Assembly (NCBI GenBank): GCA_015179025.1
Contig: WHUX01000017.1
Coordinates: 372,001 to 436,000 of the forward strand
DNA length: 64,000 bases
Source of the DNA: Terfezia claveryi
Taxonomy: Eukaryota; Ascomycota; Pezizomycetes; Pezizales; Pezizaceae
Direction: 5' to 3'
In this document: positions 698 to 60,280 of the stretch, one piece after another
Numbering within the stretch: position 1 is the first letter of the stretch
Layout of the letters: each line of letters opens with the position of its first letter
Made by a program: the position numbers and the translations under genes
Notes under the pieces: model-generated
Database searches by the model: none
Told to the model about the DNA's origin: nothing
What the model saw: the letters and a program-made list of their open reading frames with translations, nothing else

Positions 698-2624
698 TCT
701 AATGGAGGTAGAGAAAGGCTTGATAGATCGGACGGGGTGTGGTTTGCTGGTGAGCAAGGTCCTAAAGGAGGATCTGAAGATGAGGAGCGACAGTTTGAAA
801 CTTGGTGGACAAAGCCGGGATTTAAAGGTAGAATATAAGTATGCTGAGCGTTGGAGAGAAGAAGTTTGTGTGGTTAAAAAAGAGGAATTGAACAAACTTA
901 TGCTGGAGGGGAGAGTGAAAAAAGTCAGTGGGATTATGTAAGGCCCAATCAAGATGCCGGCAACCCCTGACATGCGAACCACTAGTCTGGTTAACACCCA
1001 ACGGCCTAGTACCGGCCTTGACAAGCGGACGAGTATTTTCCTATTTTTCATGTAATAGGATAGATTTCTTTACAGTGGATTGGTCGGCCGCGATCCCCTA
1101 GATCTTCTGCCATATGCTACCGGATATTGCAATCATGCGTTGTCAACCAGACTCTCTCGTCCCGATTCATTGAGCACGAGACCCAAAGAGAGCCATTGAT
1201 ACTATGGTTCATTGGGAGAAACCCTAGGCCTCGAGATCCGGGGTACACGGTTTGCCTTTGCATGCACACAAGTACAAGGGACCGGTTTACGACAGTGGCA
1301 GCATCACGAGTACAACTAGCTATTCTAGTGGCTGCTCGAGGTCTATTGCTCGGTACCATTGGCCCCACCACTACCGAGGGCCTATTGCTAATCTCTTGCT
1401 CACGCAGGTTGCCTGGATCGCTCAAGATGGGAGAGCGGATGTCCAATGCTTCCTTGATACGTGGACCGCGCCGCGGGTCGCATCAAGCACCTTAATTGCC
1501 ATTGTAATTGCGGGTGTGCGGCGTGCCTTGACTACCACTTAGATGATTCCACGGAAAGCGCCCGCGCCCAGATTGAGCAAGTTGATTTCCCCACACTTTG
1601 TCAATGGGGTCCTGGTCTTAGGACAAGGGCCATGTTCTGTAACTTTGCCCTTCTAGCAAAGTACTGGAGAGCTACCTACTGCATGAAGCGTACTGCACAA
1701 GCAGGGAAGAGACTTAATTGGCCATCAAGCGGGCATTTTTTTCCTCATGCTCAAACATTGGAGTGCTGTTTGGGCAACAATGGAGTCTGTGATGTACAGT
1801 ACAATCACCCCAGCTTTGTCTTTAACCTTGTCATTTTCTAAACAGAAGGGGAAAAAAAAAAAGTTTAGGCTTATCGATAAGGATTTCTTGGGTCCCTCCA
1901 AATTGTGGGAGCCAATAATACTTTCTTGTGACTCGGCTCCCAGAGGCTTCAATTATTATTGCGCCAATTTTAAAACGCTCTAGGCACGACTGGACGCTCG
2001 CATGCATCGGCTGGCACCGTTGTAAGTTCCTGGGCGCAGGGCCTCATGTGTGCCAACCAGACTAGCCTCATGTCCTGTTTCCGTACTGAAGGAGATTGTT
2101 TGTTTATAAAATACGTAGGTACTGCACAATTGCTCTAGATCTCGTTTAACGTTCTTGATTCCAAAACAGAGATCTGAGTACTCTACACGAATCGGTTTCC
2201 GGCGATGGGAAGGGAAAATCGACAATGCCCTTGGCCTTATTATATCTCAATTTCTAGTAGGTCTGGATTTGGCGGCCGGTTCTGGATGCATGGCATACTC
2301 TTTTCTTATTCGACCTTTACTTTTTGAAGCAAACATTTGGGTTCACCACGTTCACACGACTGATGTGCAGGGAACCCCTTGTACCGTGATCGACGCCCTG
2401 TGACACTTTGGCCGAAGCGAAGATTGGATCAAGAGATCGCCGGATAACCGATTGGAACAAGTAAATACTCTAGATCATGCACAGCTACTTGAGATCATGA
2501 CTGGACTACTTACATAGTATGCAATGCAATGCGATGCACGTCTATCGTTCTGTCGATTTATTCTACGTTTAATTTGCTGCGCTGGAGGGTTGATTTGATA
2601 ATCCCGCATGCAGCTTTATTCTCC
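698..2624. other. Intergenic region, no supported gene
   Basis: This stretch separates the zinc-knuckle gene promoter from the 3' end of the F-box gene. Open frames of up to about 126 codons occur on both strands around 1117-1841. They overlap one another and match no family I recognise. Three copies of the AACCAGACT/AGTCTGGTT motif lie here (984, 1145, 2055). The outer two face each other like terminal inverted repeats about 1.08 kb apart, with degenerate similarity continuing for about 28 bp. Confidence 0.5.
2041..2073. mobile_element. 15-bp insertion flanked by 9-bp direct repeats
   Basis: The direct repeat GCCTCATGT occupies 2041..2049 and 2065..2073, with the 15-mer GTGCCAACCAGACTA between. 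The same 15-mer sits between a different 9-bp repeat at 58120..58152. The architecture is that of a target-site duplication around a transposon end. Whether it is a footprint or a minimal insertion is not decidable from one genome. Confidence 0.75.
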
Positions 2625-4425
2625 TCAACTGAAATCGTAAACCATCAAAACCTGACTGCCAGTCTCTTTCTCCCTATGAACGATTACCTTTTCATCATCA
2701 AAGCCTAGCCACCTGTCTAGAGCTGCGCCATCCCGCCAATTGGCTTGCGGCAATGACAAAGATAAAGGGTCCGCTAAATTTAGATGAGATGAAGTTGTCA
2801 ATGAAGGGTGTGGTGGTGAAGGGTGTGGTGGTGACGGGTAGACCTTGACACTTTCACCCCCTCGCCGGTTTCTAGGAATGCTACCTTCCAATTCCCATAC
2901 GCGAAGCTCCGATCCTCGCGCAGATATGCTCACAGCCCTGCCACGGCTCCCAATATGTGCACCGGAAACCGCAGATGTATGACCGAACAGTTGCTGGCCG
3001 GGGGCGATTTCCAGGCTTTCATTTGTTGACTTCACCAGGTAGACGGTCAAGGTGTTGTCGTTATGAGCTGTTAAAAGGTACCTGAGGCCCAAATAGTCAG
3101 TACACATTCCTATGCTGGTAATATGGTTCATTTGAAGCACCTACGGGTGGGCATAGGATAGTGATGTGGGCTGTGAAAGCGGAAAATAAGATACTGTTTC
3201 TGGGTTTGATCCCTCGGCAACTGGGTATGAGATCTCCGTTGGTGATATGACTTCATATGTAAGGTTTGGGTGGAGATTCTGGGGAAAAGCAGATGCAATT
3301 CTGGATCTCTGAACGCGACTGCCATCTAGATTCAGCTGTAGCTCTTGTATGGCCACGGACCACCCAAGACTAAAAGTAGGAACCGTGTATACTATGCATG
3401 CCAGCATGCCATACGTAGACCGTCTTAATGATAGTGAAACTGGCGGCCAAATTGTGTGGGATCTAAGGGAGGTAATAATAACCGGTGTACCGATCTGAAG
3501 CGTATCTTGGCTTTGTTCTCCGCTTGATGGGAAATAATACAGCAACAAATTTTGTTGAGAATTCATTACCATCAAGTGGGAGCCAGAGAAAGCCATGGTC
3601 GTAATTTTTGGTCCTGTCTCTACACGCTGGGTGTACATTGACGCAAAAGTGGATGACCGGATACTCAACTGATAAATAGAGAAGTTGCCAGTTTCGTAGC
3701 CAATCGCTACGTTGATGGTATCCTTCGAATTTGTATCTTCGTGATCATCGACAGCAAGGGCTGTGGGTGCTCTTAGGTCAATAGGACGGCCATCCTGGGG
3801 CGTCGGTTTTAGTGATATCCTAGCAATAAAACTCTGCTCTCCTCCAGCACGCCAGGCTTGAAGACCCGTGACAGAATCTACAGTGAAGATTATCCCCTTT
3901 AAAGTTGAGTACCTTGCTAATAATTCGTCGAAGATAGTGACATACCCTTCGCATTTGGACAGACAGAGGTGGCTCTGAATGCGCTGCTGAAATTCCAATC
4001 TCGGTAATACCACAGCTTCCTCGGGTCCAATTATGTCTCAGCTTATAGAGTTGTTTCCAATGCGTATTCTGTGCCTTTACCAAACTCATATCATCGAGCC
4101 ATATGGAAGAACGAGAACTGTAGGCAGGAAGAGGAGCCTGATTAACCCCTCGACCTGATCCGGATAGTCTCGATGCCCGGGGCCTGACGAAACGATCATA
4201 AAACGCGGATTTCCATACTTGATCGTCACCAGCAATCCGCTGAAGCCGTCGACATACTTGCTGACACCGAGTCAGTTCTGAGGTCGTGAGAAATGAAAGG
4301 ATCTTGAGCACGAGTTCGTCGCTTAAAGATTGAAAGTGGCATGGTAGTCGGACTCGTTTCTGTCTTGTTGATGGCAGACTCGCATTTTGTTCGGGCTCGA
4401 TTGGGGAGCCTCTCCTTTTCGACAT
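2625..4425 (-). CDS. F-box protein with WD/beta-propeller-like C-terminal region
   Basis: Three exons (3946..4425, 3145..3896, 2625..3081) give 562 residues. The 49-nt and 63-nt introns are GT-AG, and the second has a clear TACTGAC branch site. Residues about 30-75 form an F-box (FQSLSDELVLKILSFL, then CRRLQRIAGDDQVWK), the Skp1-binding module of SCF ubiquitin ligases. The rest resembles the degenerate WD-repeat body of fungal F-box proteins, with pieces such as LRVWELEG and a terminal LMVYDFS block. The intron 2 junction restores SYAHPYLLTAHNDNTL, a strand typical of such propellers. It is predicted to be a substrate adaptor of unknown target. It is divergent from the Ctp1-like gene, with only 156 bp between start codons. 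A His/Ser/Pro-rich repeat (PSPPHPSPPHPS) interrupts the last exon. Confidence 0.85.
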
Positions 4426-4581
4426 GGTGAATAAATTCATTGCAAATAACACCTGGGTACGAGGCTAAATAAGTAGTGCTATCTGGTAACTGAGCCTTAT
4501 CAGCCACAGCCACAGTAATCAGCCACAAAGCCACTCTAACTCATCGCCTGATGGTTCTTAAAATAATAATACTCATTTCAG
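4426..4581. promoter_or_regulatory. Shared divergent promoter of F-box and Ctp1-like genes
   Basis: Only 156 bp separate the two ATGs. The region contains a CAGCCACA-type repeat at about 4501-4535 (three partial copies). Co-regulation is inferred from the spacing alone. Confidence 0.4.
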
Positions 4582-7342
4582 ATGGAAGTCACACAAATTA
4601 CGCGGAGGCATCGAGTCTGTTTATTTAATGCTTTCACTAAGGCATTTGGAGAACTCGAAGCTGAGCTCTTAAAGAGTAAGTCATTCCGCGTGCGTTCCAA
4701 ACTTAAGTTCTGTTGTACATTTTCTCACCACAGGTGCCTGTAATAGGAGAGGAAGCTGTAATTGAAGAAAGAAAAGAGCTTAAGGCTACAATATTGGAAC
4801 ATAATGCAAAACTGGAAGATGAGGTTGGAGCGTACTTGCTGTTCTGGCTTATGATTTTCGTTGACTGGCGGGATGTTAGATTGAACCCGGCCGGCATGAA
4901 CAACCATCGGGTGTCAATCAAGCAGATATTATTGAGTTAGAAAAGAAGATTGCAGCTCTTATAGAAGAGAACGGAGACTTAAGGACGAGGAATTCAGAAT
5001 TAGAGGCTGTAGAGGCATTGAAGCAGGATAGAACGTGAGTACTTTCCGATGTGGTGCAGCCCATGGATTGAGGATACTGACACTTGAATTATTCTAGCCT
5101 GCGGTCACGATCAGCCAATAAGGAGAATATTGAAAATGCAGTTTGTGGTATGAAGAATGCCCTTGCAAGCCAACAGCACACTGTTGGGCCCACTGTGGGT
5201 ATCCAGACAGAAATTGATGCTATCGATGCATCACCACAATACGAAGAGCTAGCAAAGAAATATGAACAGATGCGGCAGCAAGTTAAGCATTATCGAGAAG
5301 CCCATACAATTCTAGCGGAGAAATACCGAAGGAACAAAGCCGTATGGAAGCAGTGGGTGGAGCAAGATAGACTGCGGCGGCAGAAATCGGAGAAGTTAAA
5401 GGCACAACTCAATGCAACCCGAAGGGGTACCACGGTCACGCCAGCAAGGTCAGGATCTGGTGGGCTGCTTGTAGGAACTTCTAATGTTACATCAGCAATG
5501 CAGCCCCCTATCATCTCCTCGCCTGCTCTGCCCACGGCGCCGGAAATCGCCGAAACACATTGGAGTTCCTCACCACCTGGCACACGGAAGGCCGTGAATG
5601 AGCCACCAACACCTTTACAACAGGTACCCATTTCCCACAGGGATACACCAGGCACTGAACAGGCAGCCAATTTTGATTCGGATCATACCACAGACGGAGA
5701 AGGCGAGTTACGTGTTACTGCATTCAGCCCTATATCGCGTGCTATTTTTAGTGACGGTGAACGGAATGCTTCTCCAAGACTCCCCAAACCACCAGCCAGG
5801 GTTAAGGCAGAAAGATTCACCCAATCAGCGAACGACGTCCCTGTCTATATCAAGAGTGAAACTCGCTCTTCAAATTCTGTTCTTGATCATATTGCCTTCT
5901 CCCAACAGAGCCTCGACTTAGATGATTTAGGCTATAGACCCGAGACTCCGAGGAAAAGAAAGTACATGAGCAATTATCAATCACAAGCACAGAGGAACAA
6001 TGTCACTCCTACGTCCCTGAGACACCGACTGGCTGTAGTCTCTCAGGCTCAGGAGGAGGAACTGCAGGATGGAGATGACGAGGCGGGGGAGGAGGAGGAT
6101 GGTTCTAGGCAGTGTGGTGCTACTGCAGTTCCGAATATTCCTCATTTTATTCCGAAATTACCGGCTCCCCGTTTATCTGGAGTAAATATATCCAGAGTGA
6201 AAATATACGGCATACAGGAGGACTCGCAACCGGCTGACATGCCTCTACCTGTTTCGGATGGTGCACGCCCAAAAGCCTCCAGCAAGCAGGCTCCCCGAGA
6301 GGATGCTGCGTCCCATGGTCTATCTACCACAAGCCAAAGAAAACAGGCCGCATCCACTCTGGGCAAAGAACCAGTCAAGCCAGCTGCGAGTATCAGGATT
6401 ATTGAGTCCCGGCGCGACAAAAAGACAAGAGATCTCAAAATGATCGATTCAGGGATTCGGTTCATGACCGAAGACGGCATAAACAGGGTTGATACTCTTC
6501 CCAAATCAATCCCAACGGATAACGCTCTCTCGAAGAGGGAAATACTCAAGCGGATGCTTGATACCCCGCCTGTCAAAGTGCCATCTATTGCCCACTTGCG
6601 CAAGAGCGCCAAGAGTAAAGGAGTCACACCTGCCCATTGCACGATCGATGAGAAGGACGAGGGAGGATCCAGGTTTAGAACACCTGTTATGCAAGGTCAC
6701 CTCGCAAAAAGGAATATTCCGGTTACGGATCCGCCGGTTTCAAAGAAGGCTAAGTTCACTACCGGATCTGAGCGGAAGCCAGCCCGTGATGAGACCCTTG
6801 GGCCTCAATATGGGAGATTGAGATCCCGTAATGCAAAGGATCTTAATATTTCAGACTTCGCTATCAACGCCGATAAAGCACGTGGCTTTAAATACGCCTA
6901 CCAAGAGGTCATTCGCAAACGAGACGAACGGAAATGTCTCCCTGGGTGTATGGGGTCTTGCTGTAAGGAGCTTCGAGACTTCTTAGCTAAGGCAGGAATG
7001 CCCCCTGGGCTGCCCTCAAAAGCACCTAAATGGCGCTCTTCACCAATCCCTGGCTCTTCCCAGTTGCAACCGGACGAAGAGGAGTTTGACGAGGATGAGG
7101 AGGAGCCTTTGCAGGTAGACCGGGGACAGTTAAGGCAGTTTGTGGATAAGTTTGCAAAACATAGGAATATGTTCGATAGGGACAAATCCCCGGAGGGGTT
7201 TTGGGCGAGTGAGTTTCCCGATACACAGGAGGTGGATGAGAGAAAGACAAAAGCAAAGGGAGAGGAGAGAAAGAAAGTAGCAGACATGAAAAGGGAAGCT
7301 GGGAAGCGGGGTGGGAGATGGGTTTTTAAGGATGAAGTGTGA
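4582..7342 (+). CDS. Ctp1/Sae2/CtIP-family DNA double-strand-break resection factor
   Basis: Four exons are inferred: 4582..4675, 4747..4823, 4880..5034 and 5098..7342, giving 856 residues. The intron 2 donor (GTTGGA at 4824) is weak, so exon 2 is the least certain part; the others are conventional. The N-terminal 130 residues are rich in Glu/Lys/Leu and predicted coiled coil, matching the oligomerisation region of the family. The middle is long, acidic and disordered. The C-terminus carries the diagnostic block: a Cys cluster CLPGCMGSCC near residue 722, KHR at about 796 in place of the family RHR, and FWASEFPDTQE near residue 810. Family members activate the Mre11-Rad50-Nbs1 nuclease to start homologous recombination, under CDK/ATM phosphorylation. 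The many SP/TP sites in the linker are consistent with that. Confidence 0.9.
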
Positions 7343-8381
7343 CTTGGTACACAGGCCGTGGGGTGTTGATATTGGGTAGAAGTGAGAAGAAAAGGATTTT
7401 TTGGCTATGTTACGATTTCAATTGCTTTGAATTATGGCAGAATTAGTACCTTGTATGAATATTGCATTTTATTTTTGCTTCCTGAAGAACAGGGCATTTG
7501 ATTTAGCAAGTCGCATGTGTCTACATAGATACAAAACACAGGCTAATTTATTTTAAACCAGATTACATTTATTTTATTATTCCATTCTCTACACCAACGA
7601 CGGACTTAGTACCATTATTTGCTCCATCGTGTAGTAATTCTAAATTGTTAGGAAATACTTACAGTAAGTAGAATTACCCTGATTAGCCTTAGAGTTACCA
7701 AGTTTGAACTAGCCACCAAATCTCAATCATGGATACTTAAGTGTACAAGTGTAGTCTCGGTACAAGTGCCTAGGCTGTGAGACTAACAGGTGCTCCAACT
7801 CCTGCGATCGGAGGTTTAATCTCGTCTATGCATATCGTCCCGCACGCCACCAAAGACAATTGAAAGGCGATCTGGGCGATCTGCAAGGAATACGACGCAT
7901 AGATGCCCTATAACCGTTCTGATCTGAATGCTCTGCAAGGTCATGATGACACACATAACGGCCGTCCCGGAGTTTGCGAGTCAGAACCACTTGGCAGAAG
8001 ACCACAGGACCACGGACCTGGCATTGCTGCATTATGAGTAGTCTGGTTACATTATGAGAAGCTTTGGTGGCTGAACAAGGGGGAGATATACCTGAAATTA
8101 ACTAGATAGCTGACTGAGATGCTTATGAGCTGGAAGCGGGGCTAGGCGTCTGTACCATAGCCCCGTGATGGGCGTTATGAAGCAGCTATAGCCTCGGTAC
8201 CGGTCAAGGCACAGGTTCGCAATGCAATGATCAACTCTCAGCTACAATACTTTGCTTCAGATTCACTGCATTCTACTATCTCTCCTTACTCACGAGATAG
8301 TATGAGCTCGGGTAAATAATAGCTTGTTACTATCGTCACTTTCCCAGCACGAGTACGTTTCGCAAAAACCCGGGTCCAAAG
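7343..8381. other. Intergenic region
   Basis: This is the 3' flank of the Ctp1-like gene and the promoter of the permease. It is AT-rich at about 7380-7740. I see no supported gene. The 11-bp TAGTCTGGTTA insertion at 8039 lies here. Confidence 0.5.
8030..8058. mobile_element. 11-bp insertion flanked by 9-bp direct repeats
   Basis: CATTATGAG occurs at 8030..8038 and 8050..8058. Between them lies TAGTCTGGTTA, the left-end orientation of the dispersed terminal motif. The match of the 9-bp repeats is perfect. Confidence 0.75.
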
Positions 8382-10699
8382 ATGGAAACGGGACCTAAAG
8401 ATGCCACTGCCGATGAGAAGTTGGCGAGGATGGGGTATAAGGCAGAACTGCCTAGGAATCTAAGCATGTTGTCGATTTTAGGGCTGTGAGGATCTTCATA
8501 TATCGCGATTTTGCATTAAGACGCTGACAATGATTCTTCTCCAAGGTCATTTGCGATTATGGGTTCGTTTGAGCTTGCCATTTCATCCTAATATGATTTG
8601 GAGAACTGATCACCTACCTTGATTGGACGATTATAGCGGTTCCATTCGTAAGGACTTCTCCTACACTGAATGGATATAGATTTATGAGAGATTGACCTAA
8701 TGTTGTTACGTGGGGAATATCTAGGGTTTAAGCACGACAATGTATATCTCTCTTACGGATGGACAGGCAGTTACGGTGATATGGGGATGGGTTATTGTTA
8801 GCTTGATTAGTCTGAGTATTGCGGCGAGTTTAGCGGAGATATGTGCGTTGCTCCTCTGTAGTTTTATTGGGTGGATGGTGCTCATGTTGCGGATGGAATC
8901 ATAGGTGCTGTATACCCAACTGCAGGAGGCGTTTATTATGTAGGTATCCGATGCACCACTGTGAATAGTGGATGACTGAAGGGTAGAGCTAATGGCTTTC
9001 AGTGGTCCTTTATGTTGTCAACAAAACGTGAGTCCTGGGATCTGGAGTATGGGGGTCCCTGAACGAGTAGTTGACTTTACTATGCAGAATACGCATCCAT
9101 TTCTTCTTGGATCACAGGTGAGGTACACTGTTAACTAAACCATAGTTGCTGCTTTTTCTAACCACACTACAGGGTGGCTAACACTCGTTGGGAACTGGAC
9201 GTGAGTTACCCAAACAGTCATTACCTGAAATAAACAAAACGAACATATATTGATACTAACCTTCATAGTGTCACCACCTCCATCAACTTTTCTGGCGGAC
9301 AGTTAATCCTCTCAGCAATCTCCCTCTGGAAAGAGGATTTCGTGCCCAATTCTTGGCAGACAGTTCTCATGTTTTGGTGTGTTATGTTGATCTGTGCTCT
9401 CGTCAACACATTTGGCGCCCGATACCTAGATTTGATCAACAAGATATGTATATATTGGACTGCGGCATCAGTGGTAATCATCATGGTTACGATTCTGGCT
9501 ATGGCGGACGTGAAAAGGAGCGGAGCCTTTGTGTTTGGGCATTATGATGCAAGTGAATCAGGCTGGCCGAGTGGCTGGGCGTTCTTTGTGGGGCTGCTAC
9601 AGGCGGCATATACGTTGACTGGGTATGGAATGGTGAGTAGGATTATCCTTTTTGGGTCGGGGTACTGAACTAATAGGGGAGGACTGGATATTGATAGGTC
9701 GCATCAATGTGTGAAGAGTAAGTCCCGTTCTTGTGTCTGCTTTATAGTGGAGATGGCTTACATGGCATAATGCTCACAGAGTCCAGCAGCCACACCTTGA
9801 AGTCCCCCGAGCCATGGTCCTTTCCGTTGCCGCCGCGGGCATCACGGGAGTCCTCTACTTGATCCCCATTCTTTTCGTTCTACCAGATATTAAAGTACTC
9901 CTTGGCGTAGCAAATGGACAACCGATTGGTCTCCTGTTCAAAACTATTACTGGGTCCGCCTCAGGTGGATTCGGACTCCTGTTTCTTAGTAAGGTCAGTT
10001 CTCTCGGTTAAGGTATATAGTGTCGCTAATTGTAGATAAAGTCCTTGGTATTCTTTTCTTTGCTGGTGTCGGTTCCCTCACTGCCGCTTCTCGATGTACC
10101 TATGCGTTTGCCCGTGATGGTGCCATCCCAGGTTCTCGACTCTGGTCCCGCGTCAACCACCGTCTCGACATCCCACTGTGGGGAATTGTTCTCTCCACCA
10201 TCGTCTGCTGCCTCCTAGGCCTGATTTACTTCGGCTCCACGGCTGCGTTCAACTCCTTCACTGGTGTTGCAACAATCTGTCTATCCACCTCTTATGGGGC
10301 ACCAATCTTGATCTCTCTCATTCGAGGGAGGAAATTGGTTAAGAATTCACCATACCCGCTTGGAAAGTTTGGATTTATTACCAACGTTGTCACAATTTTG
10401 TGGATTTGTTTGGCAACGGTGTTGTTTTGTATGCCCGTGGAGTTACCAGTGGCAGCGGCGACGATGAGTACGCATCAGAGTTTCACAAGGCTGTTTTATG
10501 ATCTTCTTGGAAAGAGTCACTGACTTTTGGAGTAGATTATGCAAGTGTGGTGTTTGCTGGGTTCACAGCGATTTCTGCGGGATGGTATTCTGTAAGGGGT
10601 AGGAAGAGCTTCGTTGGGCCTAAAGGCGCAGTGGAGGCTGAGGGGCAATGGGACGTTCCTACGGTGCCGGAGGGTGTAAATGAGAAGGATAAGGAGTAA
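8382..10699 (+). CDS. Amino acid/choline permease, APC superfamily (choline/GABA transporter type)
   Basis: Thirteen exons join in one frame to 518 residues: 8382..8485, 8546..8562, 8637..8647, 8725..8842, 8905..8939, 9003..9027, 9088..9117, 9173..9200, 9269..9632, 9698..9717, 9780..9988, 10036..10467, 10536..10699. All introns are GT-AG. Exon 3 is 11 nt and supplies part of the conserved FAIMAVPFGLSTT stretch. About 12 hydrophobic helices are visible. Family landmarks include YPTAGGVYYW, GWLTLVGNW, QPHLEVPRAM, LTAASRCTYAFARDGAIPGS and the C-terminal YPLGKFG. These match the fungal choline/GABA permease family (TC 2.A.3.4; Hnm1, Uga4 and GabA relatives), which import choline, GABA or polyamines with protons. 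The substrate cannot be set from sequence alone. The length is normal and no frame is broken. Confidence 0.88.
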
Positions 10700-12840: not shown

Positions 12841-13263
12841 GGGGGCGGGGCGCCAATGAGTGGGGGAGGTTTGAATTGTTATGGTGTTTGGGCAGAGGAG
12901 AGAAAGATGTGTTAGAGGTGGGTTTGGGGGGTTAGAGGTGGGTTTGGGGGGGTGTATCTATAAAGTGATTTCTTCTGCACTCACTATATGAGAGATATTG
13001 AGGGTAAAAATTCCCATAGTATATGTATATTCATGCGTTGACGCGTTATAGACCCATCGTGTGTATATATAATTCTAGTCGAAATTAAACATTCACCAAG
13101 ACTTCACTGATAGAGGGGAAACCGAGTATTGACTGTCTCTGTCCAGATTCGAATGAGGTTATATACTCACCCTTCAAACGGAAATTACTACCTACCTAGG
13201 AAGGTTACCACCAGCCCTAGGATTTCCAACGAGACACGTACTTTAGTATGTAGCTTCATCGAT

Positions 13264-18290: not shown

Positions 18291-18309
18291 AGCCCCAACA
18301 AACCCCCCA

Positions 18310-18357
<48 letters not shown>

Positions 18358-38708: not shown

Positions 38709-40946
38709 GATTGCGGTTGAGGCTGGTTGATAGCCGGAGAGAAGGAGGAATGAAGGATAAGAAAGAAATAGGGTCGCGAGAGATAGACTATCTACTCAGC
38801 TTTAGCCAAGTGAATATTGGCAGAACCCGACCGTGGAGGTGGGAGGGGGGCTAGAGGCGAGAACAGGTAAGGATCAAGCTTCCTATCAAGGTGGCTGTCC
38901 GTCTGTAGTACCACCGTCCAATCTATTTACTCCAGATATGGATGATAAGGAGTCGGCAATGCTGGGGTACTGCGGCTCCCCTTCGAGAAATGGAAACCTA
39001 AAGTTCGGAAACAGAAATGTGATGAGTATTCTTCGTTCCAATCTATTGGCAACAAGCGGCAGTGGCATCCAATATAAACGGCCCTCACTCGTTCGCTGAC
39101 CACACTACTCCACTAAAGCACAAGGCATTACAAGGGTATGTCTCGTGATGGTTTTGGGGGGGTAGGTAGTCGTTCTCACCGGCCGTTCGTTTTTTCTGGA
39201 GAGTTGCTTCCTATCGGGTTCTCTGGTCAGCTAGTTCAAATGCATCTCTGGGCCTTGTTTGAAAGCGAACCGATGAACCAAGAGCTTCCGGGATCCTCAG
39301 ATTCCCACAGCTTTAAAAAGCAAAGCACAGCAGGGAGATGTGGAATTCTATTATTCCAAGATGGAATGATAACACAAGAAACAGTCCAGACAGAGGAGGG
39401 CAGCGGATCCTTCGTATTCAGCAAGGAAACTAAAATGCATAGTACCCACTCAGCAGTATCGACACCCCACTCAGGAGTACCCGCACCTAATGGCAGCCGA
39501 AATGGCCCCATACCTTAAGTCTCAGTGGACTAGTGGAATTGGGGTTGGGGTTGGGGATGGGGGAGTTTTCACTATATTATTCTGCTGCGCTGCTCCCAGA
39601 GCCCGATGGTTGAGGACGAGCTGCTGGGTAATTGGCTGTGCGGTGCAGCAATCTGAGATCTGGGCTTGTTGGGCCCTTGAACAACCCCTGCCCGCTTTGG
39701 GTAGTCCAGGTTCGTCAGGCGACGCTTAACCACAGTGAGGAATTGATAACGTAACGAGTAGGGTGAGCTAGGGGGGGAGGTAAACAACAGTTCCTACTAC
39801 CGTATGCCTATACGATACGATACTGTGCAGAATGGAGAAGGAAAAAAGGGAGCGCGCAATGTAGTATATCGCATGCGATACAAGAGGTTTTGGAATTTGT
39901 GTACCATTAGCATTACTTCCTCCAGATTCCCCACCTCCCCTCCCCCCCCCCTTTGGGCTGGGAATCCGAGGCAAAACCTGAGACGAGCTTCGCCGAAACT
40001 CGGTTGCTATCTATACCTATGCTATCTGAGTCAGCCTTGGCTCCAATAACTCATATCAGATATCGGTATAGTCTCATGATATCGGTAGGTTATCAGGGGA
40101 CACGGGGTCGCGTGCGCGTGAGCTCTATTTAGTGATTGAAGCAAGTGACCTGGTTTTTTAGTCTGGTTTTCCGCTCCTGATACCTTGAATCTCGTTAGTT
40201 AGCTTCCCGCGGTGTGCCGCAGAATCTCATGTGAAAACAGCAACCAGACTATGAAAAACATATGGCTGTTTGCGAGCTGGGTACGAAGTATGTATGTACA
40301 TGGCTGGAGATAAGAATCTGAGCTAGTTACCATACGGTCTGGTCTGGTCATGCTTAGCATTACCCACTCACTGGCAGCCTATACCATACCGCGTAATCAT
40401 GCAGGAAATACTTCATTTGAAAGTCCGGGCTGTGCAGATCATTTGAACTTTCTTCTCTCTTCCCTCTTGTGTGCGAGATTGTTCTCTTTGACACAAATAT
40501 GATAAATAAATAAATGTGGTGAAAGGCATGAGGGGGCTGAGGTGGCAAAGGGCCTTCAATTACTTCAACCCTGGCCCCTGCAAGTTGGTTCTGGCCCTTG
40601 CGCACTAGAACAGAGAGATAAGGAAAACGTTTTTTTTTTTTTTCTTTTCTTTTCTTTTCTTTTCTTTTGGGAGGGGGGGGGGGGCCTTTTCTAAGTAAGT
40701 AAGTAAGCCAAAACGTCATTGGGAAAGATAAGTACGTTTACATACGTAGTTTGGAATGCAAAGTTACCCATATCATATATACATACTTATATACATGGCA
40801 TAGATATTGGAGGTTCGAAAATAAAATGCGACTCTCTACTTATTATTCTTTCTCAACTTTCTCAACTCAATTCTTCTACTCCACCTCCACCAACACCAAC
40901 CATATCACACCACCCGGTTCCCCGGCCATCAGAAACCCAACCGGCC

Positions 40947-40977
<31 letters not shown>

Positions 40978-49118: not shown

Positions 49119-51310
49119 CTTTGGATCGTCCCTGTCAAGTAAAGCTAGTAGCTAAAGCAGTTTTTCCCACCAAACAAAAGAAGCTTCCTTCCTTCCTGCC
49201 TACACTTAATTCGTGCTCGTTTGTAAAGGCGTCGTCCCCCAACACAGGCACTGTTGCCCCACAGTGCAGCTCTGGGATGGTAGTTGTCACGGTTCAGGTG
49301 CCTCGGCTGCTTGCTGCCTGCCCTGCTTTAAATTATTCCAATAACACACAAAGTCGCCCAGAAATAAGTACCCATTTATATTTTATATTTTTATTCTGCC
49401 CGCAATTGGTAATAAAATGTGAATTCTGAATTTAATATTCGGGTTTTCACTGCGACAGCCGATGCAAATGGATATAAATCGGTAGAAACTCAGCCGGTAC
49501 GGTGCTGTGACCAAGTGGAAATGAGGGGAATCGAGGAACAACGACGAGTGGAGAAAAAGCTAAAAAAAAGCGGGTGGAGATCAAGAAGCGATGGAGACAG
49601 GTATATGCATCATCAGTCAATCAATCAACAAAACGCCGAAGCAGAGAAAACAGAGTCAACAAGTAACGCCCCCCAATCAATGCAGAGAAGCCAAAAGAAA
49701 GATGGAAAGCAGAGTACACCTGCTTGTGAGGCGACGAATGAGGGGCGGACCAGGAGGTTCTGCTTCAGAAAGTCCTGCCCTCTGAGGGGCCCACTGCGGA
49801 GAATATTCCATTCGTCTAAGCATGCAGCTGCACCTGATATAAGATGCCGAAGAGCTACCTACGTATGTACTCTGACGGGCACCCGAAGACCGACGATCTC
49901 ACTACTCCCAACCGACTCTCTTGTTGGTTAGTTTGTGCATGTAATCAATAGGTATAGAAAACAACCCACAGCGTAGAAGATCGTTCAACCTTTCTCATAC
50001 CCTTGGTACATAGCAAACTGGTTGTGTTCAGGAAACTGGCCGAAACGCAACCAGACTACCTGCATTGGCCAATCGCTTCAAAGTGCCACCCATAGAATGA
50101 TTGTGCCCGATAATAGACGTCGAGCATAGAGAATTGAGCCGAGACTCTTGTAGTTTTATATGTACTTTTCAGCCAGATGCCTCGACCTCATGGTCATGGG
50201 GGGCTACAGGGGGCTACAAGTCCGACAGTGATTGCTGACTGTAGCCCGCGTGGTCCTCGTGGTTGTGTTATAGGATAGGGCCCCAATGCCACGTGCTGCC
50301 AAGCTTCCTCGGCCTCCCTTCTCACGACTCCATTGCCGCACCTGATGCATCCGATATGCTTAGCTTGCTGGCACTCTTTCCTTTACTGAGACCATATCAA
50401 GGACTTGTGGTCCCGGTGCCTACCAGAGCTCAAGCCAGCTCGTCGACGGCTGCTGCCAGATGCTGTGTACGAATTTCCCGAGATATCAGCTCTGATCACC
50501 TGCAATCTGAGCCAGGTATATATTGGGCAGTGTACTCTCGAGTATAGTCTAGTATAGATGGATATATCAAGCTTGGTGGCTGCTTGGGTAGGGCCAACTG
50601 CAGATGTGATTCATATTGTCCGGCGCCGCACGCAGGTTTCAGGGTAACGACTTGACCTGCGGAGCCAACGCAGAAGGTAAATATCCCATCAAAGGGAAGC
50701 GCTATCCTTGCAAGTGAAGCGGGTTACCTCATTGAGCCACTGGCCAGTCCACGTGCGATGTATAAACCACAATATTCCTCAGGCACTCCCTCCGCATGCC
50801 TCGAGCTCCCATCCTCTACCAACACTACCACCACCACCGCCGGCCCCTAACCGCCTCCCGCCCTCTCTCCCGCCCAAACTCAAACCCCGACAATCAAAAT
50901 GATTTTCCGGAAACCACTGCCGAGAAATCGTGAAAGGTCTACCTTGCCCACGTCAAAAACATCATGGACGTTGAGCATACTTCAGCAAAGAGATCATGTG
51001 AAGTATGGCCTCCTGAATCAGAAAATGGGGTCATGACTGGGCTGCGGCAGTATAAGATTGCTAGAGGATGGTTGACGTTGGTATGTACTTGACCCCGGTG
51101 CACAAACTGCTTGGCTTGAGGTAAGGTTTTTTTTGCTATTGTTGGATGTTGGTGATTGATGAATAGTCTGATAAGTTTGATTTTTTTGGAGATGAAAGTA
51201 ATGAATCTAGAGAATACGTATGATTGTCATAGCACATGCAATAGATACACCATCTTGGCCTGTCATCAATCATATTCTCATTATACATTGAAGCAAACCT
51301 GCCACAAGAA
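49119..51310. other. Intergenic region
   Basis: No gene is certain. Two short frames with an ATG at 50899 or 50964, the latter ending at a good GTATGT donor near 51080, could be 5' exons of the orphan frame at 51311, but I could not splice them together convincingly. An AACCAGACTAC motif lies at 50049 and a CAGGGTAAC motif at 50640. Confidence 0.4.
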
Positions 51311-51841: not shown

Positions 51842-52688
51842 TCATGAATGAATATGATTGGTTTTCAATGGGCGGGTTTGGTTGTTTAAATGAGGACTTT
51901 TGTTCTCCTTTTACCTTGCTTGATGTAGTTTGGTTTTTTTGTTGGGTGTCAGTGCTTGATTTCGATAATCTTTCCACTCAAGTTATGATTTGTGGGTATG
52001 GTTACCCTGAAGCTTCAGTAAATCAACCAGTATGCAGTAAATCCTAATATCATGACTCCATGAGACCGGTTTGGCATGGATTCTAGTGACAACGCATGCG
52101 AACCACGAGTAAAGAGTTTATCTTTTCGTTTATTATAAAATTTATGTATAAGAAATGTTGCTGAGGAGAGCAGTATGACGGAAACACGTGCATATGTCCG
52201 GGCTTTGGATTTTATATATATAGATTGAGTGAAGGCCTTTACTTAGCTATATCAACTTTGGTCATGAGGTCGGTATTTCTGTATGTATATAATATACGTT
52301 ATTTTTATATATATGTCTATATGTAAATATATGTAAATGTATAGTAAGGTCTTTGGAATCGGGATCATTAGCGAAGTAAGTAACATCCTCCATACCTACA
52401 CCAGTTAGTGGAAATACATATCCAATATCAGAAACCAACTAATCCCAAATGCCGCAATTCAAAACAAATTGGGGAAACAACGCTGCAATTCTTATCAAGA
52501 TTACGGGACCAGGGTCAAAAAAAAAAAAAAATGAAAAAAAATTTAGAGTACTTCTGTCTTGTCTGTCTGTCGGTGTCGTTTCTTGCTGGGATGTAATAAT
52601 ATTATAGGTAGTATCGGGGAATTGCCAGGTAATGAATAAACATAACTAATATCATATCCAGAGAGGAAGAATGAATATCCAGTAGTCT

Positions 52689-52842
52689 GGTTATTGGTAT
52701 TGGTATTAGTATTAGTATTAGTTGGTATTAGGATTGGTATTGGTATTGGTATTGGTATTGGTATTGGTATTGGTATTGGTATTGGTATTGGTATTGGTAT
52801 TGGTATTGGTATTGGTATTGGTATTGGTATTGGTATTGGGTT
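52689..52842. repeat. (GGTATT)n hexanucleotide microsatellite
   Basis: More than 15 near-perfect copies of GGTATT are present, with TAGTATTAG variants at the left edge. The left boundary abuts a TAGTCTGGTT motif at 52683. Confidence 0.95.
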
Positions 52843-53167
52843 GCCAGAGACATATTAGTCTCTGAGGGGTTTAAACACCCTTGGGGTGTTAAGGGTCGTG
52901 TGGTGGTTTCCAATTCCGATGATAACGCGGTTGAAAAAATCAATAGGATATTTCTTCGATCCACTTGACTTATCCGCGTACATACAGCGAGGCTGCCTAA
53001 GAGAGAAAGCTCTCGAGGCCGGTTAGCATCAATCTTATTTGCCAGTAGTATTTCATGATTATTTCAGTCATTTCGAATAAACTATTTGGTAAAAGTGTTG
53101 GTCGGGGCAACGGAGAGTATTGGCGGGTGTATCGTAGTACTCAGATGGTGCCATTGAGGCCCTCGAC

Positions 53168-54109
53168 CTAATCAAAATCGCCGATTTGTGCAACCTTCTC
53201 CACCGATAGGTATTCCTTTATTTGTACCGAAGTCTGTACCGTGTACATATCTGGCAGGTTCTCCGTGGTACTAAGATACTCCTTGATCCGATAACACAGC
53301 TGTTCCACTCCACGGGCGATGTCAGAGCTAGAGTGTTGGTGTTCTGGTGCGGAAGGCAATATAACCATCCTTGCCCTTGCCCTTGCGCTGTCAGCCCCCG
53401 TAAAGTGCACAAAGTTATATTGTTTCAGCCTTGACCATGGCACCTCATTCTCCACTATCTATCGATCTGCCACGTCCGGCCAGGTTACTCATGAGCACCT
53501 TCCTGTATGCCCTAATTATATAGTTTCATTCTGGTGCTAACTTTCGGGGCTTATATCACGCCTATTGGTAGATAACCTGCTTTAAGGCGCGCCACCGTCT
53601 CAGGTGCGTATATGAGAGAAGCGTTGAGTGTTGAATAGGAAAATGCGAAGAAATTGTACGCGCGGGTGAGATTGGAATGCTGCATTCGCCCTCGCATATT
53701 TAACGCACGCCCCTGAATAAGAGGAGTTGACGATCAGTGTATGAGGAGTATTGTATTACGGGAAGAGCTCTTGTAGTGGTTGGAGGTATTAGAAATTCTC
53801 GGGCCACGAGGCCCACCTCGATTTGTCCACAGACAGTCGCGGGACTACTCGGGGCCATGGCCGTTGATAATATGGTCATTTGGTGATGATCTTGCGGATG
53901 TAGTAAAGATATTATGTCGTCAGGAATCGCTGTTTCAGACCATCTTCTCCCGCGATACCGAAGCATTCTGTAGGAGAATCTGCAAGTTCAGGAACCCTGT
54001 CCGCACTGAGGTATTCATGCAGAGAAATATTTTTGGCCGCGTAGGCCTCCCGTCCACTAGCTCCTCCACATACCTGGTTTATGTGGACAGAGAAAATAAA
54101 ACATCTCAT
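53168..54109 (-). other. Possible decayed gene with repeated EYLS motif
   Basis: Three minus-strand segments contain similar peptides: IKEYLSTTENLPD, IKEYLSVEKVAQIGD and LHEYLSADRVPELAD. They lie in two frames separated by stops. The similarity suggests duplicated remnants of one coding unit. No family is recognised. Confidence 0.25.
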
Positions 54110-56917
54110 GAACTTGAGACAGCGGCCTTCCGGTCGAATCTGTCTTATTGGATACCCTTATCGTGCCTGGTACGGGAAGGTTCACCCAATAGGACAGAAT
54201 ACCCAGTAAGGGAATAGCAAAAGCACATCGCTGTAAGTCGGGATTCAATCGAAGTGCGGGCTATGGCAAACGAATTCCCTTCCCGTGATGTACCACTTGC
54301 TGAAACCAACCAGACAAATAGGCCAATTGAAGGTGACCTTGTGCGGTGCTCTTTACCTGTTGATGTATATCCCTGGCGTATATCCGTACGCATATACGTA
54401 TTCAACATTGTGATAGTCGTTCGCTTTCAGCAAGACGTAGTCTGGACTTCCGCATTTAGAAGGCCTACTTCATATAACCAAGGCGAGTCTACCTAGTGGC
54501 GAGAAACCTATCCATGATCAGCTTCAGGTTAGTCCTGATACTTGCATCACCATCCACCGCAGACACAAAATACCATCTAGTTGGTACACTTTGTTTCCCA
54601 CACGGAGTTCCCAGGCCAAGAAGCGATATCAGGCTTTTATTTTCAATTACCCTGCATATCCACCGCGCGTAAGACCGATACCCCCGCTCTACCCAATATA
54701 ATCTGTAAGGTTTTATAGCCTCTCATAGTCTCATCCGCGGGGCAGTCTTGAGCAAAGGCCCTTGCCCGCGAGTATATACTCATACTGTACGTATACAGTA
54801 TGTACCCTGTGGTAGAGATGTAGGATACCTCCTGTAAAGACGTTATGTTAGCCAGTGTGTAGAGCAGAGTACAAAACAGAGTAGTATATGGGCTGTCCTA
54901 GCATTTTTCTCTAGCAATAGTCATATGTATAACCTTCGCAGGTCGTCTCAGCTAAGTTCAAGTTCATGCATGTATGCATGTATCCAGTGTATCTCCTCGA
55001 TCCAGGCGTCGAGTCAGAAGCATCATGTAACACTGTTCCGGCCTCCCATTCGGCTTTCATACTTATATTTCTGGAACCCAAGCCTCATGCAACCCAGTCC
55101 TCTGGACCTCATGAGAGGCCAGGGCGGAAAGTTCATGGATATGGTAATACCAATGTCGACGCATAGTAAAATTATAGTCTTCCATTTTTTCATATTGATC
55201 TCGTTACGAGCCCGTAATTTTGGGAATAATAATCGTGTTCAGATCTACACAGAAAGCAAGTCAGTGACCTGTCAAATTTCCCCCAATACTGACAATCATT
55301 CATGTAGAAACGTTCCACGTGCCAAGTTCTCCTCATTACCTACCTAGTATAAATCTTTAACGGATCGATATTCCGGGGCTCCGGTATGATTACATTTTCA
55401 ACTGCGGTATTAATATTGTTGCAATTTCTTCGGTAAAGCTTCCGGGGTGTGTAAGTTAAAATCAACTATCAATGGTTTAGTTTTGCGAAATTAGGGAACC
55501 TTTTAGGACTAAAGATTCCCAATTCAGGAGGCTTAAAGAATGACCCGAGAGTACCAACAGGATTGCACGGATGGAATCCATACCGCAAAACTGAGGATGA
55601 AGAACCCTGTCTTTCCATCGTGGAAAATTCCAGTTTTGCTGTGCTCTACCGATTATTATCTCCTCCCAGAGAAAGTATTGGCTGTGGTGCTTTGTTATGT
55701 TTCCAGCCCCTCTCAAAAGCACCAGCCCAACAGATTGCCACAATTGTAAACCAAACGCCCCTCAATAAAAAAAAAACTTGGCTTTGCTGGCATTGATACT
55801 GAAAGAAGGCATGCAATATAAAAAACCAGAAAATAAGCAGTAATTTAAAGAGGTTGTGTAAGTGCAGCATGCGGTGTGCTGATGTGCTGCCGGAGTGCTG
55901 ATGCATGCGTTGAGTAGGTACTCCTATGCCCAACACCGAAGCAATCTTTATTTCTATCCTGCCCGACGTCCGTGCAGGCCACATGTTGACATACCTAGTT
56001 GACACAATCACCTCGACTACAAAGTACGTTAGTACCTTCCTATGTACCTATCTGCAGCGGGATCTGCCGCAAGCTTACATACTTTGACCAACGAGAGTAC
56101 AGCAATGTGTGATGATAAGACTGCGGGTTCCGGTGCAGGAACTTACAGGTGGCTTGTCCGAGAAATCCTGCTGATCCCAACACGATAACCGCATACCTAA
56201 TGGCAGAGTTGGGGGGAGTTTTCTCACACGTGGAGAAGAGAGAGGCTGGTTCTCATGGTCTCAGGCCTGTGGGTCGTGCACTTTGAAACGTGCAAAGCAG
56301 GCAGTGAGGTCTCATCACACATCCTCTCTGGGGACAAGAGTTCGTTGGAGGGAAAGCTTGCTTTATGCATTCACAGCTAGGCCCTACGATGCAGCCAGCT
56401 CATTCCAGCGTCGCAATAACTGTCTGCATGTACCAGAACCTCTCAATCAGTCACAGTTGACCCTACATAATCCCTACCGTTTCGCAATCGGTCCATCGCC
56501 AAGCCCGAGAAGTGCGTGGGTCCCTGGTACAGTTGTCACAATTGTTTCATTGGCGATTGGGAGTCCGGATGACAAGCTTTCAGCCAGATTAACAAGCTTC
56601 AGACAGTTTAGCCTCCCAGATATGCGGGTCGTCCTATTCAGGTAATTTGGAAGAGAACTGGAAGCGAGAGACAGGGAACATGGGTCGAGACCGAGCAGGC
56701 AGATGCACCGCCGCTCCCGAAGCTGGCGGTGGAAATCCATGCACCTACTCTAAAAGTACGGTAACGCCCAGTACGTAGGTACGTAAGAGCGCCAGGATCT
56801 TGATGTTCCCCAAATTGTGATAACGTTATGTTTTATCCACCGAGGTAACTTGCTAGGTTTGGTAACCAAATCCTTAATTCTCCGCCCATTAACCATATTT
56901 TATATAGTTATAGTCAA

Positions 56918-56957
56918 TAATTATCCTAGTCTGGTTGCACTACCCCTCTAATTATCC
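56918..56957. mobile_element. 22-bp insertion flanked by 9-bp direct repeats
   Basis: TAATTATCC occurs at 56918..56926 and 56949..56957. The insertion starts TAGTCTGGTTGCAC and is 22 bp long. The duplication is perfect. Confidence 0.75.
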
Positions 56958-57247
56958 CAGGGTCTGATAGAGACTAAACAATTATGGGTTGATGTTTGCT
57001 CTTTGTGGCGAAGGCAAAGGAGTTCTCTTTATCAGGCAGCCGACGATAACGGCTGGGCACGAGGACAGTGAGGACGTGGCATGAGCCTCTTATATTAATT
57101 CCCGAGAAATGTCGTGCCGGTTAACCTCTTAAATAATAGATCGGATAGGAGATACCTAAGATAGCCCATGTTAACTTTAATATCGGAGATCTTGATAATC
57201 TTGCTCCTAAAGTTGAATGTCTCAACATCGAAGTGGGACATTACAAC

Positions 57248-57304
57248 CACCCATTGTAGTCTGGTTTTTGGAGGGTGTTGTGCCAAACCAGACTACACCC
57301 ATTG
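57248..57304. mobile_element. 39-bp element with 11-bp inverted ends and 9-bp target duplication
   Basis: CACCCATTG occurs at 57248..57256 and 57296..57304. The insert at 57257..57295 begins TAGTCTGGTTT and ends AAACCAGACTA, perfect 11-bp terminal inverted repeats around 17 bp. It is the only copy with both ends close together and defines the element termini. Confidence 0.8.
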
Positions 57305-58119
57305 CTTGAAATACCTCATCCTGCGAGCTTTCCAAAAAGCTGCGTCATCTCGGTCGGGGCTCCTCGAAGACAGCTGTGTAAGCGAAGGTCTTTGCAATCG
57401 GAATTGAAACTTTTGCCTGTCAAAATACCATATCTACAACAGTTATCTCTGGTGTCCTGCATTGGCTGCCTCATCACCGATCTCAAATTATCTAAGAATG
57501 ACCGACCCTCTTTTCCATTACTGAAATAAAGTCAACTACGATAAATTCCTCTGTCCCCCCTGTGCAACTGTGAGTAGTGATGATTTCCTGCTCTTGAAAG
57601 TGATGAGAATTGGACTCGTGGTAGCGTACATTATTAGGCCGTTGACGTTGGCTTCCAGTCTGGACTAGGTAGAGATTTTGAAGACTGAAGAGGCATAGGA
57701 CTTTAAGGCTTTCAAGCGCTCTATAGGAGATAACAGGTACAACTAGAATGTCATCCGGATCAAAACCAGAGCAGCATGGTAATATTTTTCCAACCTTGCG
57801 ACACAACAATCCCACCTTAAGGTAGCACTTTTTAACACGAATATTAAGCAAAAGCCCAACCAGGGTCTCTTACCTTATATTGAGAGGTTTTTTATAATCG
57901 AGGTACCACTGTACAGCAGTTCTTTTCTCGGAAGGAGTGCCATCACTCATCATAAGAGGGATAGATCTACACTGACCGTGCAATAACCTAATTCACATCC
58001 GAATTCAAGAAACTACTCTTCTCTTTCTCCGGCTGTTTGCCGGCCATCTTAACTTTTATATCGGACCTTTTATTATCGGTGACGCAGAAGGCTAGATGTC
58101 TCATGTCTGGTTGACAATG

Positions 58120-58152
58120 GAATTTGACGTGCCAACCAGACTAGAATTTGAC
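58120..58152. mobile_element. 15-bp insertion flanked by 9-bp direct repeats
   Basis: GAATTTGAC occurs at 58120..58128 and 58144..58152 around GTGCCAACCAGACTA, the same 15-mer as at 2050. A partial facing end (TGTCTGGTTGACA) lies 15 bp to the left. Confidence 0.75.
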
Positions 58153-59923
58153 TAGGTAAGAATTCAACTTCACCAGACCAGACCATTAGCGTGATCTACT
58201 TTGCTTGCGTTAACGCATGCATAACACAGATACTTGCGTCCGTACTCTCGAGGCACAGGTACCCAGGTAGGTGAGCGTTCTCTGCTACCTTGGGACCTAG
58301 CTAGGGCTTTTTCCCTTTACCTAGGCGATTGGGGATTCTTTGAAGTCGTGATAATTCTCATTTTCTCTTCAGCGACAGTCAGTTCCCCCCACACCGACTG
58401 CTTTCAGCAATTTGATCAATCTGGATTAGGTGTATGCAAGGAGAATTGGATTTGGATTAGCACTATGTTACGTTCCGGGTAAAATAGATGCAACTTTTCG
58501 TGATCCTTGTCCATGTCTAGCCTGTTTCAATTGGTAGGGGCTATTGTAGGGGCATAGATTTCTTAGAACCGTTTCATCTCAAATGAAAACTGAAAACCTC
58601 ATGGAATATAAACTCGTCACAATTGCAATATGGATGCACAGTCTCTTATAAAGATAAGAATCAGTTGAATATTCATAAGGATTCCGGGATTCCGTATTCT
58701 CGTGCCCGTACAAATACCTCCCACGGGCCAGTTACCGTAGTCAACGCAGATTGTGTAAAAGAAGGTCTGACTTCATCTCCAAATTATATTTCCAATGGGT
58801 CCCTTAATTAGCTGGGCCTGCCTTAGGTATGTACACATATATACCCATAAATGAGATGTATATTCCAATAGGCAGTCGGATTCCAGCACATCGGTGGCCG
58901 AACTCCGAGAGTGGACCCAAAGGGAGGTAGACTAGGATTGACACGACTTGGCTGCTTAAGATGATGCATCTCAAGCCGAACACGGAGTACTGCGGATAAT
59001 CACACTACCCACGCTAATGTCATGTTTTCTAAGCATAAGAAAAATGGCATTTTGCGAAATGAATATGACATTCAGGAGGCAGCTATTCGATTAAACTTCA
59101 GGGTGTTTCTTGTCAACTTAAGTTATATAAAGATTGTCATGGTAGAGCATCGCGAAGAAGTGTTAGCTGAAAGACTGTAAACAAATGCTCATGTAGAACT
59201 CAGCTCAGGCAGTTTTTTCTTTGTCCTTAAACCAATAATTGCGATCCGCGTGCCAAAAATAAAGCAGTGACTTGCGGCTATTATTATTACATACAACAGC
59301 TGGTAGCCGCATTCCCGCAACAGTTGCCTAGATTAAAAAGATGCCCAAAGATGTAAAGCACATGTGCTATTTCTGGATGACTACCGAGCATTGAGGGGTG
59401 ATGATGAGAAGCATTACCTAGCTTGAAGACTGTTGCTGTGAATGGCACAGTCAGGAATATGTCAGATTGATGATGCAGCATCGGGATCTTTCTCTCACCG
59501 TAACGATGGGTAACAACAGCTGGCCTTAAACCCTTGGAGCGACCTATAACATGCTGCCATCACACGGTCACACAAATTTTCTTTTCAGCCTGGGGTTAAG
59601 AGTTGATCGGTTGCCAAATAGCTGGGCAGCTTGCCAGATACGCATTTCACATGCGGTCTTCTGCGGGTGCTTCTAGGAATAGCTAGGTGCATAGATAATT
59701 GGAGACTGGGATACCGGTATATCGGTTCTGCCACACCTTGGCCTTACTGTGTATATCAATGATTGGTACTTGACTGTGTTATGAGCTGGCCAGTGGAAGC
59801 GGGTGAATAATGTGTAGTGATTTATATAACACAGATGACCACGTACTGAGATATTGGTCCCGGGCCATCGGTACCGCATTTCCGCTCTTTTGGGCTCTTT
59901 TGAACTCTCTTGGTCTCTTCTCG

Positions 59924-59951
59924 GGGCTCAGATAGTCTGGTTGGGCTCAGA
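59924..59951. mobile_element. 10-bp insertion flanked by 9-bp direct repeats
   Basis: GGGCTCAGA occurs at 59924..59932 and 59943..59951, with exactly TAGTCTGGTT between. This is the smallest case and marks the core terminal motif. Confidence 0.75.
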
Positions 59952-60249
59952 GACGTGCAAGTTGTCCTGTATCAGCCTAGAACATAAAAAAGTAATAATC
60001 AAGCACTTTCCGACGGGACGTTCATGACACGATAATGTGACTTTTGACCTGGAATACAATGATGTGACTCGTTTTAGAGAGACCTGTCTGGGAATGGAAC
60101 GTTACATACATAGTTGTATGGTTTGATAGACCGAAAGGAAAGCGAAAAAGGAGAGGTCGTCTGCTCCTCAGGAAAATGGTGATCTGGCGCCGGAAACGGC
60201 TCGAGACTAGTTGGGGACTAGATGAGAATTAATAATAACCGAATATCGA

Positions 60250-60280
60250 ATCCCCACCCGCAACCAGACTAATCCCCACC
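60250..60280. mobile_element. 13-bp insertion flanked by 9-bp direct repeats
   Basis: ATCCCCACC occurs at 60250..60258 and 60272..60280 around CGCAACCAGACTA. A CTGGTTGGCAC sequence resembling another end follows immediately at about 60280. Confidence 0.75.

Follow-up and report, generated by a model that had tools for sequence, protein, structure and literature searches.

The 64-kb stretch of Terfezia claveryi DNA analyzed here (C79:372001-436000 of a 72.6 Mb assembly in 794 contigs, hereafter the window) carries a set of very short insertions, bounded by perfect 9-bp duplications, whose sequence is that of the terminal repeat of a ~9.1 kb element found in full elsewhere in the genome, at C135. 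These mostly one-ended scars of 10-34 bp with their 9-bp duplication suggest an unusual mode of DNA cutting or insertion. The favored reading, to which we assign a probability of about 0.46, is that each site records a single movement of a member of the family typified by the C135 copy, as a scar left by excision after a long staggered cut. The first-pass annotation of the window had offered both an excision footprint that keeps part of a terminal repeat and an insertion of an element end only; both are still live.

Six loci of the window had been described as sharing one plan, a 9-mer, an insert of 10-22 bp and the same 9-mer again, and on re-reading this plan is exact at all six. Three of these one-ended scars lie on the plus strand: 8030..8058, where CATTATGAG flanks the 11-bp insert TAGTCTGGTTA (8039-8049); 56918..56957, where TAATTATCC flanks the 22-bp insert TAGTCTGGTTGCACTACCCCTC (56927-56948); and 59924..59951, where GGGCTCAGA flanks the 10-bp insert TAGTCTGGTT (59933-59942). 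The minus-strand scars are 2041..2073, with GCCTCATGT on either side of a 15-bp insert (2050-2064); 58120..58152, with GAATTTGAC on either side of a 15-bp insert (58129-58143); and 60250..60280, with ATCCCCACC enclosing the 13-bp insert CGCAACCAGACTA (60259-60271). The two 15-bp inserts are the identical GTGCCAACCAGACTA, as had been claimed. A seventh locus, absent from the earlier description and without assigned strand, is a two-ended scar at 57248..57304, in which CACCCATTG encloses a 39-bp insert (57257-57295) bearing the motif at both its ends.

The window holds 14 copies of the motif TAGTCTGGTT where 0.09 would be expected, a ~150-fold excess; six copies belong to the six loci, two to the 39-bp element, and six have no abutting repeat. 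All 12 motif places tested lie outside the listed open reading frames of at least 200 aa, the list being made without intron modeling. A 93-bp stretch at 40159..40251 (no strand assigned) has TAGTCTGGTT and AACCAGACTA at its two ends without a flanking 9-bp repeat, and is either a decayed element or two unrelated ends. From 52683 onward a motif copy is followed directly by an ATTGGT/ATTAGT microsatellite-like array. A search of the window against Rfam gave no match. Among the genes of the window, one for a VTC-domain protein matches T. claveryi at 100% over 97% of the query, and others look fungal, which fits an origin in this desert truffle or a very close relative.

Chance as the origin of these sites is ruled out by the motif excess together with two further lines of evidence. 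In a 264-kb sample consisting of the window and 20 tiles of 10 kb, four of them C2 tiles chosen for holding hits, a perfect abutting 9-bp repeat within 60 bp is found at 22 of 42 motif sites (two more lie too near a tile end), 7 of 14 in the hit-chosen C2 tiles and 15 of 28 in the remaining sample, whereas the background rate at any position is 0.8% (4,179/516,960). When N9-insert-N9 pairs are scanned without reference to the motif, TAGTCT is the top insert start with 25 of 1,126 pairs, the runner-up having 7. The first-pass contention that six abutting repeats could not arise by chance holds, and in the sample the repeat is far commoner at the motif than elsewhere; all the sequence read amounts to about 0.5% of the genome. 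A control with other frequent 10-mers, 9 of 29 of which exceed the motif's fraction of abutting repeats, is spoiled because tandem arrays dominate it; by eye the nine are registers of a ATATATGCGAGAAACTC-like tandem repeat. The 22 sites represent 21 distinct loci, since the 39-bp element is counted from both ends, and only that one of the 21 is two-ended while two are nested scars. Genome-wide, the exact 15-mer TAGTCTGGTTGGCAC has 2,885 copies against none for the reversed control. For the 10-mer, scaling by the 44:17 sample ratio gives an estimate of ~7,500 copies, which is rough because four tiles were chosen for hits.

The source found for the scars is a full element at C135:449886-459000, ~9.1 kb long, whose facing ends read TAGTCTGGTTGGCACAAGCCCCTCGTAGAGG-GTCTGG.. 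with the same 51 nt at both tips, and which is flanked on both sides by the perfect 9-bp duplication CGTTCTGGT. In such a complete end the scar sequence runs on into GTCTGG. The first-pass annotation had proposed a search for a full element with these termini and a transposase; the element, its two ends and its duplication were found, and no known transposase was recognized in the half that was read (450502-455000 and the tips). The complete end is matched exactly at 13 places genome-wide, diverged ends being uncounted, against none for the reversed pattern. A second facing pair at C235:51350-59448, recognized by its complete ends, spans 8.1 kb and is the closest such pair among the 13, so that no short two-ended derivative with complete ends is in that list. 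The C135 element itself bears a 12-bp scar (L101:614).

The C135 element encodes a RecQ-like helicase and an orphan protein. Its open frame is part of an annotated 695-aa protein, P0121 (BGX38DRAFT_1268251), in which no Pfam family scores above cut-off. A 449-aa part of P0121 recovers only P0121 itself among the best 7,996 candidates of 5.8 billion proteins and has no match among solved structures, and the predicted structure of P0121 is uninterpretable (mean pLDDT, the predicted local confidence score, 37.8). The element also carries DEAD and helicase-C domains, whose relatives include proteins named RecQ helicase and, closer to the element's own domains, a group from Peziza echinospora and from unnamed contigs. 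Of the five best matches to the helicase piece, among which is the element's own copy, a complete end accompanies those on contigs C135, C235, C300 and C656; the match lies inside the facing pair on C135 and C235, 0.9 kb from the complete end on C656 and 16 kb from it on C300. Both proteins have relatives on C95, one at 41% to the C-terminal part of the orphan frame and one at 65% to the helicase piece, and the contig also has a GAGG-ending motif at 50819.

The anatomy of the scars is regular. The fetched loci contain 143 motif sites that differ by a 59-nt key, and the length of the longest flush repeat has its sharp peak at 9 bp, with 54 sites, against 13 at 10-12 bp (8 of them at 10 bp), 6 at 8 bp and 70 at 7 bp or less. 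Scars with perfect duplications consist of the outermost 10-15, 22-30 or 31-34 nt of the element end, with the outer end abutting one copy of the duplication and the cut end the other. One-ended inserts with a perfect repeat (n=51, a pool enriched for 15-mers and GAGG ends through the choice of fetched places) measure 10-14 bp in 11 cases, 15 in 10, 16-21 in none, 22-30 in 9, 31-34 in 17 and more in 4, the four longest being nested scars or misread two-ended cases. The long class stops at the close of a mini-hairpin begun at position 21, CCTC-GTA-GAGG closing at 31 or CCTCC-ACA-GGAGG at 33. The repeat stands at the hairpin close or within 1-2 nt of it in 15 of 19 GAGG-ending places, being perfect in 12 and carrying one mismatch in 3. 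The remaining four comprise a complete element end (L061) and three places with no clean repeat (L062, L064 and L071). At a twentieth such place, L080, a perfect repeat encloses a full 51-bp palindrome. When the C135-type end is folded as single-stranded DNA, two mini-hairpins are predicted, the first (11-20) with position 15 in its loop and the second ending at position 31, whereas in the L068-type end position 15 lies outside any loop.

One fixed and one variable end with duplications also recalls truncated retrocopies, and the scars might be retroposed from a short RNA ending in AACCAGACTA and truncated 5' at the hairpin. Such an origin, which we hold to be very improbable, is opposed by the constant 9-bp length of the duplication and by the presence of this end at both termini of a DNA element that has a target-site duplication; nor is any tail seen. 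Within the duplication itself T is rare at position 1 (4/51, p 0.001) and A at position 9 (7/51, p 0.04), both values coming from 76 uncorrected tests. This weakly two-fold symmetric base bias suggests a target joint made by a transposase, under excision and insertion alike.

Some scars have been overlaid or rearranged. Nested scars are seen at L016:4468-4483, L019:7381-7411 and L090, a younger scar with its own 9-bp duplication lying inside an older one. At L083 (C168:151200-151380) two outward-facing scars stand 35 bp apart, and their duplications, compared by eye, match only with the intervening segment inverted; on this reading by eye L083 is a precise inversion between inverted scars, which either recombination or a second round of cutting at the outer ends could have produced.

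In the favored excision pathway, the transposase would make one cut flush with the element border and, on the opposite strand, a second cut ~15 nt or 31-33 nt inside the element, the latter at the inner edge of the mini-hairpin; these positions are deduced from the scar lengths. The element would then depart, leaving flanks with long 3' tails, and end joining would trim one tail back to the duplication while retaining the other, whole or shortened, as a one-ended scar; only rarely would both tails be kept to give a two-ended one. The hairpin would protect the long tail, and within this proposal the lengths 16-21 are missing because of that shielding. The RecQ-like helicase of the element may unwind its ends. 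Staggered-cut excision explains the discrete lengths, the trimming, the hairpin limit and the same-subfamily two-ended scars. Long internal cuts and retained ends have precedents in the 17-nt stagger inside the 31-bp repeat of the P element (PMC7776569, in excerpt) and in the mariner/Stowaway footprints that retain the target-site duplication and a short end piece (PMC4561436, in excerpt).

Genome-wide there are 46 two-ended places, with both 15-mers no more than 30 bp apart, and of the 17 two-ended places fetched 7 have a perfect 9-bp repeat at their outer ends. Of the 18 that can be classified from 5 or more letters on each side, the two ends belong to the same subfamily in 15, against 8.3 expected by shuffling (15 being reached in 1 of 20,000 shuffles), a count to be taken as an upper view because short palindromic interiors favor it. 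One of the three mixed pairs, C1:725085, is better read as a one-ended scar beside another end. A 30-bp palindrome of two 15-mers with a target-site duplication was found, which is the product predicted if both 15-nt tails are kept. The 46 also include several near-perfect palindromes of 48-51 bp (e.g. C712, C2:632017 and C789), C712 with a perfect duplication, and hairpin loops occur in both orientations, ACA and TGT. These palindromes and loops would suit an origin of the scars from ~50-bp palindromic miniature elements that lost one arm in replication. That origin is improbable: the two-ended places are few beside the 2,885 copies of the 15-mer, replication across a hairpin would be expected to yield two-ended products, both loop orientations are present in complete ends as well (C19, C656), and the C135 element shows the sequences to be the plain ends of a long element.

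Several observations weigh against staggered-cut excision. One-ended scars far outnumber two-ended ones, and equal tails should often give two-ended products. At seven loci (on L019, C1:167235, L044, L085, L086, L091 and L096, in the author's reading of 137 sites) filler bases stand between the outer end and the repeat, at a junction that simple excision never breaks. Two imperfect sites (L020 +1292 and C1:167235) can be read as scars of 16-17 nt. The predicted mini-hairpin positions match the scar stops at 15 and 31, a match that is only suggestive because the folds are weak, 15 to 52 of 200 shuffles folding equally well for the four sequences. To these may be added the lack of a recognized transposase in the half of the C135 element that was read, the ratio of ~220:1 between exact 15-mers and exact complete ends, and the 20 of 42 sampled sites without a perfect repeat, some with near repeats and some with none.

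Much of this is accommodated if the scars are instead aborted one-ended insertions, in which one element end is joined to a 9-bp staggered target and, once no more than its first 10, 15 or 31-33 nt have entered by copying or transfer, the piece is sealed, leaving dead-on-arrival insertions that would be the DNA counterpart of truncated LINE (long interspersed nuclear element) copies. We hold this to be a close rival, only a little less probable than excision. It accounts for the one-endedness and for cut ends flush with the duplication, for the outer-end filler at the seven loci, and for the excess of scars over full elements; the absence of a short two-ended derivative among the 13 exact complete ends and the helicase of the element speak for it as well, and the symmetric base bias fits a transposase-made joint here as it does under excision. 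One-ended transposition is known for Tn3-family elements, there with a target duplication. It is also known for IS801/IS91-like elements (PMC3189936, in excerpt). On the other side, the same-subfamily two-ended places are more simply the removal of one element, and we know of no eukaryotic case with inserts this short. A more far-reaching form of the proposal, which we think rather unlikely, is that a new superfamily of eukaryotic DNA transposons with a RecQ-like helicase and an orphan protein starts transposition at one end and usually aborts within the first 10-34 nt. Its usual product would then be a one-ended micro-insertion with a perfect 9-bp duplication, the predicted mini-hairpins at 11-20 and 21-31 of the C135-type end setting the stops.

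The first-pass annotation had linked the 9-bp duplications to Mutator-like elements (MULEs), an attribution that is not sustained. The duplication length does agree, as 9 bp lies within the 8-11 bp, commonly 9, of MULEs. The MULE transposase domain PF10551 has 21 hits genome-wide and none on C135, in a six-frame search made exon by exon that may overlook a domain if it is split or strongly diverged. Nine of the 21 hits (C773, C61, C89, C60, C20, C62, C242, C29 and C790) were surveyed over 4.1-8.6 kb of surrounding sequence, together with one arm of a tenth (C81). The three MULEs with resolved termini (C61, C89 and C62) have CGGACTGACTC in two cases and CGGGATGCTTCC in one, and the others fetched have long inverted arms or no resolved ends. 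A MULE source was rejected, the resolved termini differing from TAGTCTGGTT and C135 having no MULE hit. The C773 MULE contains the motif within its arms only, C60 and C20 have only scar-like copies or variants, and the C62, C242, C29 and C790 stretches hold no motif copy within one mismatch. In the MULE at C773:252601-261200 (L049, L052, L053) tandem repeats lie within inverted arms of ~2.8 kb. Both C773 arms and the C81 arm (L056) share two TAGTCTGG/TAGTCTAG scars, with no empty site among them. L050, L051 and L057 are compact MULEs; their short terminal repeats (CGGACTGACTC.., CGGGATGCTTCC..) are perfect and their duplications measure 9 bp.

The 9-bp duplication differs from the 8 bp of the P superfamily and from the 8 bp (5-7 in some) of hAT elements. 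The P-type domain PF21787 has no hit genome-wide, in a search where control genomes gave none either, and no hAT dimerization domain (PF05699) is on C135 among the 150 matches listed (150 of 182 candidates scored). These hAT domains are very numerous in the genome, with at least 150 matches, many of them with open frames. The KDZ domain PF18758 (Zisupton and kin) has 9 hits, none on C135, and the IS1595/Merlin domain PF12762 has no hit, this search being positive in one of 14 control genomes. Helitrons have neither target duplication nor terminal inverted repeats, and the C135 element has both, which are the general marks of a cut-and-paste element: terminal inverted repeats and a duplication of fixed length. 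In the features tested, the element departs from MULE (domain), hAT, KDZ, Merlin and Helitron, and from P in the duplication length. Under the best reading it would be P-like in its working, no membership of the P superfamily being claimed.

In the literature on Terfezia and desert-truffle transposons, on miniature inverted-repeat transposable elements (MITEs) with 9-bp duplications, on helicase transposons and on solo terminal inverted repeats, no such scars are described among the papers listed, judging by titles and abstract openings and with most subscription journals outside the scope. The scars are too short for what repeat annotation targets, yet thousands of motif copies can be traced to a single family. 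As products of excision they would document earlier moves of an element that is now rare and would imply a long staggered cut outside the P family; as insertions they would make one-ended micro-transposition a new way for a eukaryotic genome to gain inserts of ~19-43 bp. With a full element at hand, the choice between excision and insertion is testable.

Comparison with known systems shows partial likenesses to several. The P element of Drosophila makes 8-bp duplications and keeps end remnants after end joining. Its 31-bp terminal repeats with a long internal second-strand cut of 17 nt (PMC7776569, in excerpt) resemble the arrangement proposed for the truffle family. What sets the truffle family apart is a duplication of 9 bp, cuts that would fall at two positions (~15 and 31-33), scars that mostly keep one end and a helicase within the element. 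Footprints of mariner and Stowaway elements retain only 2-3 nt of the end. There too the target-site duplication and a short end piece stay behind, but the duplication is 2 bp (PMC4561436, in excerpt). MULEs share the 9-bp duplication, seen also for those of the T. claveryi genome itself. The MULE Muta1 occasionally leaves up to 13 bp of its terminal inverted repeat where the donor duplication is absent, and is inferred to cut outside that repeat (PMC5225508, in excerpt). The C135 source element, in contrast, is not a MULE hit, and its termini differ. One-ended transposition of the IS91/IS801 kind likewise has one end fixed and the other variable, as does that of the Tn3 family. The fragments of IS801, however, are at least 229 nt long and end in a tetranucleotide (PMC3189936, in excerpt). 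Finally, as with solo terminal inverted repeats and MITE derivatives, the short derivatives outnumber the full elements; known MITEs keep both ends, whereas the truffle scars mostly keep one, down to a length of 10 bp.

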